Of a stretch of 64,000 bases of DNA, positions 1-6,662 are shown one piece after another (position 1 is the first letter of the stretch; each line of letters starts with the position of its first letter). This DNA is from Bryobacterales bacterium. GTDB lineage: Bacteria; Acidobacteriota; Terriglobia; Bryobacterales; UBA6623. Where the stretch lies: the NCBI GenBank assembly GCA_026713545.1, contig JAPOOG010000045.1:1-64000 (forward strand), written 5' to 3'. The notes beneath the pieces were generated by a model. It saw only the letters and a program-made list of their open reading frames with translations, was not told where the DNA came from and made no database searches. The translations under genes were made by a program, and so were the position numbers.

Positions 1-80
1 ATTCCCCATAATTCCCCACAATTCGTCGGATCCCCCCCAAGCCGCTGTCCGCGCTCCGTCCGCCGTTCTCGCTGGCAACC

Positions 81-259
81 CGTGGTGAAACCCCGCGTAG
101 CACCGAGAGCGGCCCGCATAGCACCGCTAATGGCGCTGTGCCCGGCTGACAAGGAGCGGCCAGGGAGCATATTGGACATATTCGACCGAGGAGCAACGCA
201 GTTCAGACGGGATGAATCGCCGCTTGAATGCAGCGGGGTTTTTGCCGCGGGCTGCCGGG
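81..259 (+). repeat. dispersed repeat family A, copy 1
   Basis: About 180 bases that recur at 2734-2913 with roughly 85-90% identity by eye, in the same orientation. It contains a short internal repetition of tagcaccg and the AT-rich stretch catattggacatattcgacc. The second copy sits 42 bases before the start of the second class V aminotransferase. Both copies are intergenic and non-coding as far as I can see. It could be a small mobile repeat, a structured RNA, or what is left of a duplication that also produced the two aminotransferases. Confidence 0.8.
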
Positions 260-415
260 CTTCCCGGCGCGCGCCGTCAGCCGCAACTCCCGCCGCCCTC
301 CGGGTTCGTTCCGTTGAGGAGAGCGCAAAAGGAATCCATGCTGAGAAAGGAGAACGTTCTCGATTGCACGAACAGGGGTGCTTTCTATATTCCGTGGAAA
401 CGCCCACGTGTCGGC

Positions 416-444
416 TTGTGTCGGTCCGTCGTCGGGGATAGAAT
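416..444 (+). promoter_or_regulatory. sigma-70-like promoter for the isochorismatase-like hydrolase
   Basis: A -35 box TTGTGT (416-421) and a -10 box TAGAAT (439-444) are separated by exactly 17 bases. The ATG of the downstream gene is at 469, behind a GGAGG at about 457-461, so the leader would be about 18 bases. Boxes and spacing are seen; activity is inferred. Confidence 0.6.
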
Positions 445-468
445 ACAGCCAGGATCGGAGGCTCGCCC

Positions 469-1365
469 ATGATCACTCGCCGTTCTGCTCTTGCTCTGTT
501 TGCCGCCGGTCTTGCCGGCGGCGCGCTCACGCGCCTGACCGCGCTTCCCAACCGCCCCGTGACAAGCGGTCGCCTTCTCCTGCGGGCGCGCAGCCGGGCC
601 GAGATGCCCGCATCCGATGGAATGGTCCAACCCTTCGAACGGAACCTTGACTGGAAGACGTCCGAAACAGCCTTGATCGTCTGTGATATGTGGGATGACC
701 TCTACTGCGTTTCGGCGGTGCGGCGCATGGAAGTGATGATTCCGCGCTTCAACCAGGTGCTCAAGGCGGCGCGCGGCAATGGCGTTGCGATCATCCATTC
801 ACCCAGCAATACGATGGATTTCTACAAGAACGCCCCGCAGCGCCAACGGATGATCGATGCGCCTCACGTCACCCCGCCGGTGCCGATCGCTCGGTGGTGC
901 TATCTCGACCGGGAAATGGAGGCGGCGTTGCCCATCGACGACCAGAACGAGGCTTGCGACGACGAAGTGCTCCGGCCGCGCGTACGCATGTATAGCCGCC
1001 AGCACCCCGATATCGAGATCGGTCCCTATGACGGCATCAGCGACAACGGACAGGAAATCTACAACTACTGTGAACAGCTCGGGATTCGCAACATTGTCAT
1101 GACGGGCGTTCACACGAACATGTGCGTCCTGGGTCGGCCCTTTGGCATCCGTCAGATGAAGCGGCTGGGCCGCAACGTCGTGCTCGTCCGCGACCTTACC
1201 GATGCCATGTACGATCCGCGCGATGCCCCCTACGTATCCCATGAGCGCGGTACGGAAATGGTGATCGAGCATATCGAGCAGTACTGGTGCCCGACGGTGT
1301 TGAGCGAGGACTTGCTTCGCAAGGCCGACCGGTCCAAGCCAAATGCGGTGTCTTCCGGCGTCTAG
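469..1365 (+). CDS. Tat-exported isochorismatase-like cysteine hydrolase
   Basis: A 298-residue protein of the isochorismatase-like (cysteine hydrolase) superfamily, whose members hydrolyse amides such as N-carbamoyl compounds or nicotinamide. The core motifs are visible: the Asp of VCDMWDD (Asp73) and the nucleophile Cys in TNMCVLG (Cys219), after the family's GVxT-type strand. The N-terminus MITRRSALALF followed by a hydrophobic stretch is a twin-arginine signal, so the enzyme is probably exported folded. ATG follows a GGAGG site. It is followed by two Tat-exported class V aminotransferases in the same direction. The family call is firm; substrate unknown. Confidence 0.88.
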   Translation: MITRRSALALFAAGLAGGALTRLTALPNRPVTSGRLLLRARSRAEMPASDGMVQPFERNLDWKTSETALIVCDMWDDLYCVSAVRRMEVMIPRFNQVLKAARGNGVAIIHSPSNTMDFYKNAPQRQRMIDAPHVTPPVPIARWCYLDREMEAALPIDDQNEACDDEVLRPRVRMYSRQHPDIEIGPYDGISDNGQEIYNYCEQLGIRNIVMTGVHTNMCVLGRPFGIRQMKRLGRNVVLVRDLTDAMYDPRDAPYVSHERGTEMVIEHIEQYWCPTVLSEDLLRKADRSKPNAVSSGV

Positions 1366-1495
1366 CCCACGCCCGCAGCGCCGATTGTCTCAAGGGACGG
1401 ACAAAGGGTATCGACCGGCGGCAAGCTTGCCGCGAGACCGGCCGAGGCGAAGGTTGCGTCCTGGTGAAGATATCGAAGTCTCCTGGAGGAATGCT

Positions 1496-2719
1496 ATGAA
1501 TCGACGCCGATTCCTGAGTGCGGCCGCGGCTCTGAGCGCGGCATCGTCCGCGGCCTCAGCCGCCGCGACCGAAGTTGACTTTGAAGCGGTGCGCGCTGAT
1601 TTCCCAAGAACGCGCACCGCCGCGTATTTCGACTGCGCCTCATCCCATCCGCTCAGTGTCCATTCTGCTGCGGCGCTGCACCGTTACGTCGATTGGGTGG
1701 CCCATCAGGTCGGCGCACCGTGGTGGCCGTCGTGGGCGCCGCCCCGCGACGAAGCGAAGAATCTGTTTGCCCGGCTTATCAATGCGAAATCTTCGGAGAT
1801 TGCCTTCGCCCGCAGCACGATCGAGGCGGAGAGCAACCTGTTGAACGGGATGGCGCATGTCCTGGCGCAAGGTAACGTTGTCACGAACGACCTGCACTAT
1901 ACCGCCGCCCTCTACAACTACAAGATGCGGCAACAGGAAGGGCTTGATCTGCGCATTGTCAAGAATCGAAACTGGCGCATCGACATCGACGACATGCGGA
2001 AGGCCATCGATGGCGGCACGAAGCTCGTTTCCATCACGTTGGTGTCGAACGTGAACGGCTATCTTTCCGACGTCAAGCTCATCAGCGACCTCGCTCATTC
2101 GCAAGGCGCGTACCTTTACGTCGACGTGATTCAGGCAGCCGGCGCCGTGCCGATCGATGTACGCGCCATGGGCATCGATTTCGCCGCCTGCTCGACGTAC
2201 AAGTGGCTGATGGGAGTAAAGGGCTTTGGCTTCCTCTACGTTCGTGAGGACCTCCAGCGAAAGATCGTGAAGCCGACGCAGCATTCCGGCGGCGTGCGGT
2301 TCAACTACGAGCCGTGGGTCGAGCGGCCCGATGCCGCGCTTGACGAGATCACCTTCCGGCCGAGGCCTGGGCCCGGTTGCTACGAAGTCAGTTATCCGTC
2401 CTACGAAGGAGTGATCTGTGCGCAAGAGAGCCTGAACTATATTCTTCAGCTCGGTGTGAAGAACATGCGTAAGCATGTGCGCGGTTTGACGAATCGTTTG
2501 CAGGAAGAACTGCCCAAACTCGGCTATCCATCGATCACGCCGAAGGGAAATGAAAGCCCCATCGTCGTCTTCGAGGCAAGCGATCCGTCTTCGACCATGA
2601 AAAAGCTGCGGGCTGCGGGCGTTCACGTAGCCATGCGTTTCGGCAACAAGATGCGGCTTTCGCCCTCTGTCTTCAGCAATCATCAGGATGTCGACAAACT
2701 GCTGGGCGCGCTTGCCTAG
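1496..2719 (+). CDS. Tat-exported class V aminotransferase-fold protein (paralogue 1)
   Basis: A 407-residue PLP-dependent enzyme of the class V aminotransferase / cysteine desulfurase / isopenicillin-N-epimerase fold. The frame is open further upstream, but ATG 1496 has a good TGGAGG site and begins a twin-arginine signal (MNRRRFLSAAAALSA). PLP-site residues are visible: the Asp of YVDVIQAAG and the Schiff-base Lys in STYKWLMG (Lys236). A run NVVTNDLHY is shared with the paralogue directly downstream; the two look about half identical. Members of this fold act as transaminases, C-S lyases, epimerases or decarboxylating lyases, so the reaction cannot be fixed. Export of a PLP enzyme is uncommon and agrees with Tat transport after cofactor insertion. 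Confidence 0.88.
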   Translation: MNRRRFLSAAAALSAASSAASAAATEVDFEAVRADFPRTRTAAYFDCASSHPLSVHSAAALHRYVDWVAHQVGAPWWPSWAPPRDEAKNLFARLINAKSSEIAFARSTIEAESNLLNGMAHVLAQGNVVTNDLHYTAALYNYKMRQQEGLDLRIVKNRNWRIDIDDMRKAIDGGTKLVSITLVSNVNGYLSDVKLISDLAHSQGAYLYVDVIQAAGAVPIDVRAMGIDFAACSTYKWLMGVKGFGFLYVREDLQRKIVKPTQHSGGVRFNYEPWVERPDAALDEITFRPRPGPGCYEVSYPSYEGVICAQESLNYILQLGVKNMRKHVRGLTNRLQEELPKLGYPSITPKGNESPIVVFEASDPSSTMKKLRAAGVHVAMRFGNKMRLSPSVFSNHQDVDKLLGALA

Positions 2720-2733
2720 CAGGTTTGGCCGCC

Positions 2734-2913
2734 CGTGTTGAAACCCCGCGTAGCACCGAGAGCGACCCGCGTAGCACCGTGAACGGCGCGGCGCCTGGCT
2801 GACAAGGCGCGACCATGGAGCATATTGGACATATTCGACCGATGAGCAACGCAGTTCAGCCGGGATGCATCGCCGCTTGAATGCAGCGGGGCCTTTTGAC
2901 ACGGGCTGTTAGG
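2734..2913 (+). repeat. dispersed repeat family A, copy 2
   Basis: Matches 81-259 along its whole length in the same orientation; the segments around catattggacatattcgacc and gcaacgcagttcag are nearly identical. It fills most of the space between the two aminotransferase genes and ends 42 bases before the second start codon. See copy 1. Confidence 0.8.
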
Positions 2914-2955
2914 CCGTCAGGTAGTGGGAAAACACGCTAAGAACGGGAGGAATCC

Positions 2956-4140
2956 ATGAAACTCGATCGTCGCCGGCTCATCGGAGCGGCCATGGCTCTT
3001 GGTGCCGCCGGCCTTGCCTCGAATGTCGGTAGTGCCGCCCCACGCCGTAGATCCGTCGCGTCGGCCCGTTCGGACTTTCCCTGGGCCGACCGGGAGACCT
3101 ACCTGAATTGCGCGTTGGAGCACCCCCTCGAGAAACATTCATCCGCCGCAATGCAGGAATACATCGGATACCTGACCAATGGTCCGGATGCGGGTCGGGC
3201 CAGATACGAGAACAGGGAGCTGCAGGAGAATGTCCGGGGGATGTTCGCGCGGCTCATCGGCGCGAAGCCAACGGAGATCGCGTTCGTTCCCAGCACGCAG
3301 ATTGCGGAGAATCTCGTGGTGGACGGGTTGCGCATTCATGAATCCGGAGGCAATGTCGTCACGAACGACTTGCACTACGGTGGCAGCTTGTTCAACTACC
3401 GCTCGCGAAAAGCGCGGGGCTTGGACGTTCGCATTGTCAAGCACAAGGACTACACCATTGACCTCGCTGATATGGAAAAAGCGATCGATGGCAAGACCAG
3501 GCTGGTTTCACTGGCTCTGGTTTCAAACGTCAACGGCTATTTGCATGACATCGAGGCGATCAGCGATCTGGCGCATAGGCATGGAGCATACGTCTTCATC
3601 GATGTGATTCAGGCCGCCGGCGCGGCACCGATCGATGTCCGGGAAATGGGCGTCGACCTGTTGGCTTGCTCCGCTTACAAATGGCTGATGGGGGGCCGGT
3701 TCGGGTACCTGTACGTGGCGGAAGAATTGCACGGCGGGGCTTTGCGGCCGGTGCAGTTCGGCGGCAACGGGTCGGGCGCGAAGGATGCGCGGCAGTACCA
3801 GGTCAGCACGCCGAATCATGTTGGTTTTGTGTGTCAGAACGAAGCGCTGGCCTACATACTCGAGTTGGGTGTCGAGAACATCCAGGCCCATGTGCGGCCG
3901 GTGATCGAAAAGCTGCAACGGGAATTGCCGGCAATCGGATACCCCTCGATCACTCCGCGAGGGAACCGGAGTCCCATTGCAACGTTCCTGGTTCCTGATG
4001 TGGCAAAAGCTCGTCAGCGGTTGAAGAAAGCGGGCGTGATTGTCACTTTGAGGAACGGTAAGCCCGGACAAATGAGGGTCTCGCCATCCGTCTTTAACAA
4101 CCACGCGGACGTTGACCGGCTCGTAGAGGCTCTGACTTAG
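2956..4140 (+). CDS. Tat-exported class V aminotransferase-fold protein (paralogue 2)
   Basis: A 394-residue paralogue of the protein encoded at 1496-2719, sharing the blocks NVVTNDLHY, LVSNVNGYL, DVIQAAGA and the PLP lysine motif SAYKWLMG (Lys242). ATG 2956 follows GGGAGGA and starts a twin-arginine signal (MKLDRRRLIGAAMAL). It lacks a short insert that paralogue 1 has near the substrate side after residue 270, so the two may have different substrates. It sits directly behind repeat A copy 2, which suggests duplication of an aminotransferase-plus-leader unit. proC starts 51 bases downstream and may be cotranscribed. Specific reaction unknown. Confidence 0.87.
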   Translation: MKLDRRRLIGAAMALGAAGLASNVGSAAPRRRSVASARSDFPWADRETYLNCALEHPLEKHSSAAMQEYIGYLTNGPDAGRARYENRELQENVRGMFARLIGAKPTEIAFVPSTQIAENLVVDGLRIHESGGNVVTNDLHYGGSLFNYRSRKARGLDVRIVKHKDYTIDLADMEKAIDGKTRLVSLALVSNVNGYLHDIEAISDLAHRHGAYVFIDVIQAAGAAPIDVREMGVDLLACSAYKWLMGGRFGYLYVAEELHGGALRPVQFGGNGSGAKDARQYQVSTPNHVGFVCQNEALAYILELGVENIQAHVRPVIEKLQRELPAIGYPSITPRGNRSPIATFLVPDVAKARQRLKKAGVIVTLRNGKPGQMRVSPSVFNNHADVDRLVEALT

Positions 4141-4191
4141 TTTCGACCGATGCTCACGGACTTCCGTTCGAAAGGACTGAGCGCATCATAG

Positions 4192-5013
4192 ATGCCCAAA
4201 GACCTGAGGATCGCCATTCTGGGGGCGGGACGTCTCGGCGAGGCGCTGATACGCGGCCTGTTGGACTCTGCCTTGGTGACGACTGAGAGGCTGCTGGCGA
4301 CCGTCGCGACCAGCGCACGCGCGGAACTGCTGCGGAAGAAATACGGCCTGCACGTCACCGCCGGTTCCAACGGAGCGGCGGTGGCGGGAGCCGATGCTGT
4401 CATTTTGGCCGTCAAGCCCGGGAATGTCGCGGCGGTTCTGGCCTCTGTCGGGCCTGTATTCAGCACCAGGCAGATCATGATCTCTCTTGTGGCGGCGGTC
4501 CCGGTCCGGCGCATAGAGGGGCTGCTTCCGGCAGGAACACCGGTATTCCGAGCAATGCCGAACATAGCCATGACGGTGCGCCAGAGCGCGACGGCGCTCT
4601 GCGCGAATGCTTCGGCGACCAGCGAGCAGAGATGCGCTGTCGAGCGGATGTTTCGAACCGTCGGCAGCCTGGAGTGGGTAGAGGAATCGGCGATGGACGC
4701 GGCTACCGGGCTTTCGGGAAGTGGCCCTGCTTTCGTCTTTCATGTGCTGGCCGCGCTCACGGCCGGCGGTGACAAGGCGGGACTGCCGAAGGCTGTTGCT
4801 TATCGGTTGGCCCGGCAAACGCTGCAAGGGGCGGCGCGGCTCGCGATCGAAACCAACTTGACGCCGAACGAGTGGATCGAGCAGGTCAAGACCCCGGGCG
4901 GTACGACCGTTGAGGGACTGACCGTGTTGGAGGAGGCCGAGGTGCAAGAAGCATTCGTCGAGGCGGTTGCGTGCGCATCCCGGCGCGCTGCCAGACTATC
5001 CGAGAACTTGTAA
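4192..5013 (+). CDS. proC: pyrroline-5-carboxylate reductase
   Basis: A 273-residue NAD(P)H-dependent reductase for the last step of proline synthesis (pyrroline-5-carboxylate to proline), cytoplasmic. The Rossmann motif ILGAGRLGEAL is at residues 7-17, AVKPGN closes the coenzyme domain, and the C-terminal signature SGSGPAF ... TPGGTTVEGL is complete. Length is normal for the family (about 270). It lies in line with the two exported aminotransferases, but a metabolic link between them is only a guess. Confidence 0.96.
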   Translation: MPKDLRIAILGAGRLGEALIRGLLDSALVTTERLLATVATSARAELLRKKYGLHVTAGSNGAAVAGADAVILAVKPGNVAAVLASVGPVFSTRQIMISLVAAVPVRRIEGLLPAGTPVFRAMPNIAMTVRQSATALCANASATSEQRCAVERMFRTVGSLEWVEESAMDAATGLSGSGPAFVFHVLAALTAGGDKAGLPKAVAYRLARQTLQGAARLAIETNLTPNEWIEQVKTPGGTTVEGLTVLEEAEVQEAFVEAVACASRRAARLSENL

Positions 5014-5348
5014 ATATACATATATGTATCTGAATCAATAGTATACGAGAAATAGTTCTATATCTTATTGAAGAAGAGCTGTGTGTTCGCTCGAACGCCC
5101 TAGCCTGCATGTCTCACCACGCGGCGAGGTGAAGTGCGTGAGAGGGCCGTCAGGACGAGGCGCGAGCCGCTGGGCGCGCGCAGGCGTACTTGACAACGTC
5201 GAGCACGGCAAGCAAGCGCAACGAAGTCATGGCGGTCTTATCTCGTGCTGCGGCCGTCGGGTGGGGGTGGTGAGAAATGCAGGCTGGATGAGTGAGAACC
5301 GAAAGCTCGTACAATGGAGTTTCTTTTTTCTAGCCCCGGAGTTTCCTC
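5014..5348. other. intergenic region: AT-rich stretch plus repeat B copy 1
   Basis: Positions 5014-5075 are strikingly AT-rich for this genome and include the palindrome tacatatatgta; this may be a promoter or UP-type region. From 5112 on lies a copy of repeat family B. A TACAAT (5310-5315) could be the -10 box of the following gene, though no good -35 is present. No coding frame is convincing. Confidence 0.5.
5112..5280 (+). repeat. dispersed repeat family B, copy 1
   Basis: A ~170 base intergenic unit beginning tctcaccacgcggcgaggtg, with central gccgtcaggacgaggcgcga and gcaagcgcaacgaagtcatg. Related units in the same orientation occur at 35074, 37894 and 45334, with a more diverged one near 8022. 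All are between genes. The function is unknown; a non-autonomous mobile repeat or a structured RNA are the options. Confidence 0.75.
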
Positions 5349-6662
5349 ATGGTTGCCTCTGCACGCTTCCTGCTGCTTGTCATCACTGTGTTCTTGATTC
5401 CGCTCGCTTCCGCCGAAGATTGGCCGGAATGGCGCGGCAAAGGCCGCACGGGTGTCTGGACGGAAACCGGTATTGTCGAGACGTTTCCGGCTGGCGGGCT
5501 CGAGGTGAGCTGGCGCGGCGAAATCGGCAGCGGCTATACCGGTCCCGCCGTCGCGGACGGTCGCGTCTACGTGACCGACATCGTCAACAAGCAGGGCAAT
5601 CGCGGCACGGAGCGGGCGCTTTGCCTCAACGAGAATAGCGGCGAGTTGCTGTGGAAACACGAATGGGCGGCGGACTACAGCGGCATGTCGTATGCCAACG
5701 GCCCGCGCGCGACGCCGACCGTTGACGGTGATCGCGTCTATACGTTGGGTGCAACCGGGATTCTGCATTGCCTCGATGCGAAGACCGGCGGTGTGGTCTG
5801 GAAGAAGAATTTTATCGAGGAATACAACACCAGTTTGCCCACTTGGGGCATTGCCGGGGCGCCTCTTGTTGACGGCAATCGCTTGATCTGCCTTGTCGGC
5901 GGCGAGCCCGACGCCAAGGTCGTCGCCTTCGACAAGATGACCGGCAAGGAGATATGGCGTGCGCTTTCGTCGGATTGGGAGCCGGGCTACACCCCGCCGT
6001 TTCTGATCGAGGTAGGCGGCACGAAACAGCTCATCGTCTGGCACCCGCGCGCGATCACATCAATGAATCCCGATACGGGCGCAGTCTATTGGGAACACTC
6101 CTTTGACGTGCATCATGGACTGACGGTCGCGACGCCGGTTCTCGACCGCAATCGGTTGCTCGTCACGGCATTTTACGAAGGTTCGCGGATGCTCAAGCTC
6201 AGTCCGAGCGCTCCGCGTGCCGACCTGATGTGGAAGGGGAACTCCACGAGCGAGATCGAGACCGATGGGTTGCATTCTCTTGTAAGTACTCCGGTCATCC
6301 ATGGAGACTATATCTACGGCATTTGTAGCTACGGGCAGTTCCGTTGTTTGGATGCCAGAACAGGCAAGCGGGTCTGGGAAACGATGGACGTGACGAAGGA
6401 GAATGCTCGCTGGTCGACGGGACAGATCGTGCGCCAAGGCGACCGCTATTTCATCTCGAACGATCGAGGAGAGCTGATCATCGCCAGATTGTCGCCGGAT
6501 GGCTACCAGGAGATTGATCGCACGAAGATGATCACGCCAACGTCATTTGTGAACCGCCGGCGTGAACTCGGCGCCATCAATTGGACCCATCCTGCCTATG
6601 CGAACCGTCATCTGATCACACGGAACGACAAGGAGATCGTTCGCTACTCTCTCGCTCGCTAG
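5349..6662 (+). CDS. exported PQQ-type beta-propeller protein
   Basis: A 437-residue protein with a Sec signal peptide (MVASARFLLLVITVFLIPLASA, cut before EDWPEWRG) followed by tryptophan-rich beta-propeller blades of the PQQ-like / outer-membrane BamB-like repeat type: recurring patterns such as DGRVYV, SGELLWK, DAKTGGVVWK and TGKRVWE. The WPEWRG start of the mature chain is common in predicted exported proteins of Acidobacteria and Planctomycetes. It has no visible cofactor or catalytic signature, so it may be a scaffold or binding protein. SD CGGAG precedes ATG 5349. A near-perfect hairpin overlaps its stop codon. Confidence 0.85.
   Translation: MVASARFLLLVITVFLIPLASAEDWPEWRGKGRTGVWTETGIVETFPAGGLEVSWRGEIGSGYTGPAVADGRVYVTDIVNKQGNRGTERALCLNENSGELLWKHEWAADYSGMSYANGPRATPTVDGDRVYTLGATGILHCLDAKTGGVVWKKNFIEEYNTSLPTWGIAGAPLVDGNRLICLVGGEPDAKVVAFDKMTGKEIWRALSSDWEPGYTPPFLIEVGGTKQLIVWHPRAITSMNPDTGAVYWEHSFDVHHGLTVATPVLDRNRLLVTAFYEGSRMLKLSPSAPRADLMWKGNSTSEIETDGLHSLVSTPVIHGDYIYGICSYGQFRCLDARTGKRVWETMDVTKENARWSTGQIVRQGDRYFISNDRGELIIARLSPDGYQEIDRTKMITPTSFVNRRRELGAINWTHPAYANRHLITRNDKEIVRYSLAR

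Follow-up and report, generated by a model that had tools for sequence, protein, structure and literature searches.

Two enzymes of fluorescent Pseudomonas, PvdN and PtaA, reach the periplasm by the twin-arginine translocation (Tat) pathway already loaded with pyridoxal 5′-phosphate (PLP). There they act on pyoverdine, whose pathway includes the N-terminal nucleophile (Ntn) hydrolase PvdQ and TonB-dependent uptake (PMC6206403). No other Tat-exported PLP enzyme is named in the part of the literature covered. Here PvdN and PtaA are compared with a locus in a 64,000-nucleotide stretch of a Bryobacterales genome (the window), in which ISO, an isochorismatase-like hydrolase, is followed by two class V PLP enzymes, AT1 and AT2. 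A first-pass annotation of the window had called this an arrangement with no described system; given these two Tat-exported periplasmic PLP enzymes, that statement is too strong (PMC6206403). AT1 and AT2 resemble PvdN and PtaA in twin-arginine export, are weakly matched by the NCBIfam model of PvdN and have relatives in clusters with an Ntn-type hydrolase and a TonB-like barrel (PMC6206403). They differ in scoring below the PvdN cut-off, in gene context, in their larger set of paralogues and in a branch without signal.

AT1 and AT2 are more interesting as representatives of a PLP family than as members of a trio. They come from separate clades of a large class V family with Tat-type signals, found in Bryobacterales and other Acidobacteriota. 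The signals and the evolutionary pattern of this family are well supported, and no publication on it was found in the parts of the open literature searched. The three genes are as follows.

469..1365, + strand: ISO, Tat-type exported isochorismatase-like hydrolase, 298 amino acids (open reading frame, Pfam; fold nearest RutB, TrtA and BiuH)
1496..2719, + strand: AT1, Tat-type exported class V PLP enzyme, 407 amino acids, K236 (sister of a leaderless clade)
2956..4140, + strand: AT2, Tat-type exported class V PLP enzyme, 394 amino acids, K242 (open reading frame, Pfam, alignment, structure model)

All three reading frames lie on the + strand without internal stops. That of AT1 spans 1343–2719; the likely true start is 1496, at a Tat motif with GGAGG just upstream. 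ISO belongs to the superfamily of Pfam Isochorismatase (PF00857; 48.8 bits, cut-off 27), and AT1 and AT2 have the fold of Aminotran_5 (PF00266; 149.8 and 142.1 bits, cut-off 21.5) with PLP lysines K236 and K242. These lysines, and Cys219 of ISO, stand exactly where the annotation had placed them. The first base of the window is also base 1 of its contig, C86 of a 5.6-Mb genome, so the upstream context is read from sister genomes only.

Twin-arginine signals and their loss in one clade

ISO, AT1 and AT2 begin with MITRRSALALF, MNRRRFLSAAA and MKLDRRRLIGAA, and in each a hydrophobic stretch comes next. All three proteins pass a twin-arginine rule, as do 10 of the 49 window genes in all, trio included, and the genome encodes TatC (E 1.9e-60); by rule, the trio thus has the twin arginine, the hydrophobic h-region and the genomic TatC of Tat substrates. 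Throughout, the term Tat-type signal denotes such a rule-based assignment and not the output of a trained predictor (TatP, SignalP). The twin arginine is invariant in all 24 aligned members of the class V family, and this family-wide conservation of the sequence is stronger evidence for putative Tat signals than the rule alone. The annotation's twin-arginine signals on all three proteins are borne out by the rule, by the invariant arginines and by the presence of TatC.

A scan of a one-genome-per-species collection returned 522 related stretches, the best 80 of which, in 73 loci, were kept; with the loci from genome searches, 119 family members were gathered, or 99 after removal of duplicates. 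A Tat-type signal is carried by 104 of the 119 and absent from 15 (84 and 15 of the 99). The 15 leaderless members coincide precisely with the records that bear the titles Poribacteria, Latescibacterota, Gemmatimonadetes/Gemmatimonadaceae/Gemmatimonas or Handelsmanbacteria, some of which may reflect wrong bins: the row titled Gemmatimonas groups with those titled Latescibacterota. A quick tree was built from the 99 non-redundant members and five of the ten listed outgroup loci; the others dropped out because of stops in their translations, probably a matter of strand. The 12-row AT2 clade stands apart from the AT1 clade in it, with a value of 98 in the Shimodaira–Hasegawa-like approximate likelihood ratio test. 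A careful tree holds 83 rows (68 Tat, 11 leaderless, 4 outgroup), left after removal of L066_out (104 to 103), of rows more than 93% identical (103 to 86) and of the long rows L116_2, L175_8 and L172_4. Its leaderless rows form a single clade (97/86; 96% of 200 bootstrap trees). This clade is sister to the AT1 proteins of the window genus (13 rows, 100/97) and nested in the exported AT1 clade (22 rows, 100/100). Under the outgroup root, the nesting is most simply read as horizontal transfer followed by a single loss of the signal. A recent tandem duplication of AT1 and AT2 is rejected by their 49% identity and their separate clades; they are long-diverged paralogues whose substrates probably differ.

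Active sites and nearest folds of AT1 and AT2

In the AT2 model (predicted local distance difference test score, pLDDT, 86.8), the nearest folds among the matches listed are cysteine desulfurases (Z 40.3, 2.5 Å over 359 residues), with kynureninase close behind (Z 38.6, 2.6 Å over 354). No PvdN or CefD entry is among the 50 AT2 matches listed, which excludes nothing. His140, Asp216, Gln219, Tyr241, Lys242 and Arg374 (AT2 numbering) are invariant in 24 of 24 family rows, with roles presumed by analogy with SufS and kynureninase. Insofar as these roles apply, invariant Arg374 and the PLP-site residues support the amino-acid-type substrate proposed in the annotation.

Cysteine desulfurases of the SufS/CsdA type and C-DES are nearest to AT1 and AT2 in both fold and sequence, and the SufS/CsdA-type site residues His, Asp, Gln, Lys and Arg, in the roles presumed above, are shared with the family. 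In contrast, AT1 and AT2 carry a signal peptide and lack the persulfide cysteine loop, which appears as a 10-residue gap in the alignment to E. coli SufS. A persulfide-forming desulfurase role is unlikely because this catalytic loop is missing; the SufS model gives 117.9 and 117.4 bits against a cut-off of 475.1.

The resemblance to kynureninase bears on another explanation, in which AT1 and AT2 are exported catabolic enzymes of kynureninase or C–S-lyase type, ISO is an unrelated amidase and the PLP step is the whole pathway. The fold match just given, a YKWL motif (a Tyr-Lys motif shared with kynureninase) and a KYNU_C match of AT2 below cut-off (22.6 against 27 bits) speak for it. We nevertheless consider it improbable: AT1 and AT2 score only 52.5 and 41.5 bits with the NCBIfam kynureninase model TIGR01814, far below its cut-off of 246.4.

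The trio in related genomes

We tentatively read the trio, with a little less than even confidence, as a small periplasmic unit in which an acyl- or carbamoyl-type hydrolase is partnered with exported class V PLP enzymes. ISO, AT1 and AT2 would fold, and PLP would be bound, in the cytoplasm before they cross by Tat as PvdN does. Periplasmic ISO would then act on a conjugate, either imported or extracellular, whose amide or carbamoyl bond it would cleave to free an alpha-amino-acid-like compound, on which AT1 and AT2 might act by beta-cleavage (C–S or kynureninase-type C–C), epimerisation or transamination.

The ISO model (pLDDT 85.6) agrees with such a hydrolase in its fold. Its neighbours RutB (Z 18.2, 2.6 Å over 176 residues), TrtA (Z 17.7, 3.2 Å over 177) and BiuH span Z 16.9–18.2, and ISO shares with these amidohydrolases Asp73 and Cys219, both invariant in 21 alignment rows. 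Arg177 is present in 20 of the 21. Sequence similarity is weak: the BiuH and RutB models match at E 0.002 and 0.016, and ISO falls below the NCBIfam equivalog cut-offs of both (RutB 14.8 bits against 378, BiuH 17.4 against 370).

The gene order ISO-AT1-AT2 is kept in all three genus genomes available (the window's own, G001 and G002). In G002 the trio proteins are 75–80% identical and both flanks differ. The AT1-AT2 gaps of the sister genomes, 48 and 19 bases, are operon-like, against 236 bases in the window. Downstream of the trio lies the gene that the annotation had proposed to link to it.

4192..5013, + strand: proC, pyrroline-5-carboxylate reductase

It adjoins the trio in two of the three genus genomes and is absent beside AT2 in G002, so the link is rejected.

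These observations also bear on whether three unrelated exported enzymes share the site by chance, in genomes whose many exported PLP genes and Tat proteins would allow such a cluster. Each genus genome has 21–24 SelA/DgaE-like and 5–7 class V family genes, 10 of the 49 window genes, the trio among them, pass the Tat rule, the flanks and proC vary within the genus, and 16 of the 26 ISO-bearing genomes have no class V family member. Against chance stand the order kept in G002 despite changed flanks and 75–80% identity, the operon-like gaps of the sisters, and the co-occurrence of the two families. Among 61 relatives, ISO occurs in 26 (own genome included) and the class V family in 12 (E <= 1e-90); 10 of these 12, and 7 of 9 outside the genus, also bear ISO (Fisher p 0.002 and 0.02, relatedness not corrected). 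We regard a chance cluster as rather unlikely.

Beyond the genus the two families are apart in the genomes searched. Where they co-occur in one genome they lie on different contigs or, in G022, ~3 Mb from each other. Across 396 genomes of the phylum, ISO is found in 5 (E <= 1e-40) and the class V family in 19 (E <= 1e-120), both together in the window's own genome only. An ISO gene is absent from 71 of the 73 class V loci, many of them short-flanked; the two exceptions are the sister trio loci, and the sister genomes also contribute three of the 71. Conversely, no class V family member occurs in the 19 ISO loci outside the genus (20 ISO loci were fetched; L096, where no ISO gene was called, is uncounted). 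The annotation had made recurrence of the trio as neighbours in other genomes a test of the module: the trio recurs in one genus (three genomes) and nowhere wider among the genomes searched.

Two other gene types accompany ISO. A PQQ-like beta-propeller protein is encoded at 5349–6662 of the window, and because three loci from a different genus in this family (L089, L092 and L093) have its relatives beside ISO, the link between propeller and ISO may predate the trio. Genes for oxidoreductases of GFO/IDH/MocA type, a name taken from two members, adjoin ISO relatives or lie two genes away at L098, L101, L103, L105 and L106.

Hydrolase partners of the PLP enzymes

A looser partnership recurs elsewhere, with other class V members beside other hydrolases and ISO near SelA/DgaE-like genes. 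Neighbours were counted as same-strand adjacency unless stated. The AT2 clade is linked to a C45 acylase and to PD40a, a TolB-type propeller with a CehA/McbA metallohydrolase domain (NCBIfam, one member; the domain is matched by 53 of 55 cluster members in BLAST). The C45 acylase adjoins 8 of 12 AT2-clade loci, the other four being the three genus loci and one with PD40a as its neighbour. When genes up to three positions away are counted, PD40a is present in 8 of the 12. All nine C45 genes called, two of them the same gene fetched twice, have a Tat-like signal by rule. In the 14 loci of the exported AT1 clade (three from the genus), PD40a occurs in 8 and a TonB-receptor-like barrel in 6, and ISO adjoins the members of the three genus loci. 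A further 58 exported members lie outside duplicate loci; PD40a is no more than three genes away from 32 of them, and the barrel from 15. In the 15 leaderless loci, a CocE/NonD hydrolase adjoins 7 and a GH42-like protein 5. The names C45 and CocE/NonD rest on one to three members each, and the TonB-like label on one (OMP_b-brl_4, 693 bits; TonB_dep_Rec below cut-off).

ISO, C45, CehA/McbA and CocE/NonD are unrelated kinds of hydrolase that attack amide, carbamate or ester bonds. Since four such kinds accompany the PLP clades, a two-step sequence of hydrolase and then PLP enzyme may be read from them.

The same neighbourhoods recall the pyoverdine pathway. AT1 and AT2 could, like PvdN and PtaA, tailor a secreted peptide or metallophore, with the hydrolase a deacylase comparable to PvdQ. 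The union of Tat-type PLP enzyme, Ntn-type C45 acylase and TonB-receptor-like barrel in related clusters brings to mind PvdN, PvdQ and FpvA (PMC6206403). At the trio itself, however, no TonB-receptor-like gene was called among the adjoining genes, and the PvdN model NF051467 gives AT1 and AT2 47.8 and 47.9 bits against a cut-off of 650. A tailoring role is quite improbable.

Several points weigh against the periplasmic hydrolase–PLP unit favoured here. As far as searched, ISO adjoins class V enzymes in one genus only. The annotation's claim of intact catalytic residues holds for K236 and K242 and only in part for ISO, where no conserved lysine accompanies D73 and C219. Isochorismatase-like cysteine hydrolases use an Asp-Lys-Cys triad; lysine occurs in at most 7 of the 21 rows at any ISO alignment column, so the triad looks incomplete and amide hydrolysis is not assured. 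In this, and in its signal peptide, ISO is unlike RutB, BiuH and TrtA. A similar Tat rule fires on 194 of 1404 other genes of the fetched loci, some of them surely real Tat proteins, and the rule alone is therefore no proof for a single gene. Eight of the 15 leaderless loci are without an adjacent CocE/NonD gene, five of these having the GH42-like protein. Finally, the partner hydrolases are of common kinds and, since they differ, need not share one substrate.

Some candidate neighbours were discarded. Apparent ISO genes beside leaderless AT1 in L146, L150 and L155 are a single-linkage clustering artefact with no ISO match; the one in L150 encodes a beta-lactamase-family protein. An ergothioneine-type (SUMF1/EgtE) reading of neighbour c13 was rejected, the two members tested being PD40/PQQ propellers. 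A beta-lactam theme (C45, CocE, beta-lactamase, CefD-like) found no support beyond the family names.

PLP enzymes across the genome

In the window's own genome, 27 of the 46 PLP genes examined pass the Tat rule. The 46 comprise matches to PF00266 and PF03841 together with the class V family members. Among them, C5b was scored on the wrong frame (a Tat-type signal opens its right frame too) and C102a is doubtful; the twin-arginine signals of L199, L205 and L214 fall below the threshold. The three genus genomes have 24, 23 and 21 SelA/DgaE-like genes, whereas the 58 others have a median of 2 and a maximum of 14 (scoring was limited to 30 candidates in each genome). In the own genome, most of the copies examined have Tat-type signals, and a SelA/DgaE-like profile shows the twin arginine in 14 of 14 rows, all chosen from that genome. 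This expansion and its signals therefore make the trio a piece of a wider exported PLP set. Of the 19 ISO loci outside the genus, 5 have SelA-like genes nearby, with a twin-arginine signal in three of the five, compared with 2 of the 71 class V loci without ISO (p 0.004, relatedness not corrected).

Contigs of the expansion include C3, C11, C18, C20, C39, C48, C49, C58, C61, C76, C88, C101, C102 and C132. On C101 (32636–38727, in L069), four class V family genes stand in a row, with a cysteine after the Tat-type signal, as in lipoproteins; they are followed by PD40a and then a gamma-glutamyltranspeptidase with a twin-arginine start.

It is conceivable, if doubtful on balance, that the genus maintains a periplasmic PLP economy, in which two dozen or more Tat-exported class V and SelA/DgaE-like enzymes, together with exported hydrolases, dismantle acylated amino-acid or amino-sugar-acid compounds, and that one of its enzymes, having spread to other phyla, lost the Tat signal a single time and is now cytoplasmic, in part beside a CocE/NonD hydrolase. 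If so, the same chemistry would have undergone a natural swap of compartment. All acidobacterial members sampled have Tat-type signals and the nested clade has none; the family therefore offers a direct test of why a cofactor enzyme is exported, and lets one ask whether PLP regenerates outside the cytoplasm and what the loss of export alters. Vitamin-B6 chemistry beyond the cytoplasm could be studied in this way.

A dispersed repeat at the locus

Two copies of a dispersed repeat of ~166 bases flank or interrupt the genes and are not part of the enzymes.

86..251, + strand: repeat copy, upstream of ISO
2738..2905, + strand: second repeat copy, between AT1 and AT2, in the 236-base gap

The annotation had begun the locus at base 81; as far as seen this start is not genic, with no recognised gene in bases 81–468 and the first repeat copy there. 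No Rfam family reaches its gathering score in bases 1–6000. As single-stranded DNA the repeat folds no better than shuffled sequences (z 0.17); as bare RNA its fold has -63 kcal/mol, a value without shuffled control. No copy lies at the trio of G001 or G002. The repeat is matched 41 times in the own genome, where 40 of 71 candidates were scored, 29 times in G001 and nowhere in G002; the idea that it is confined to the species of the window was dropped in view of the 29 matches in G001. One further copy lies between class V genes on C101.

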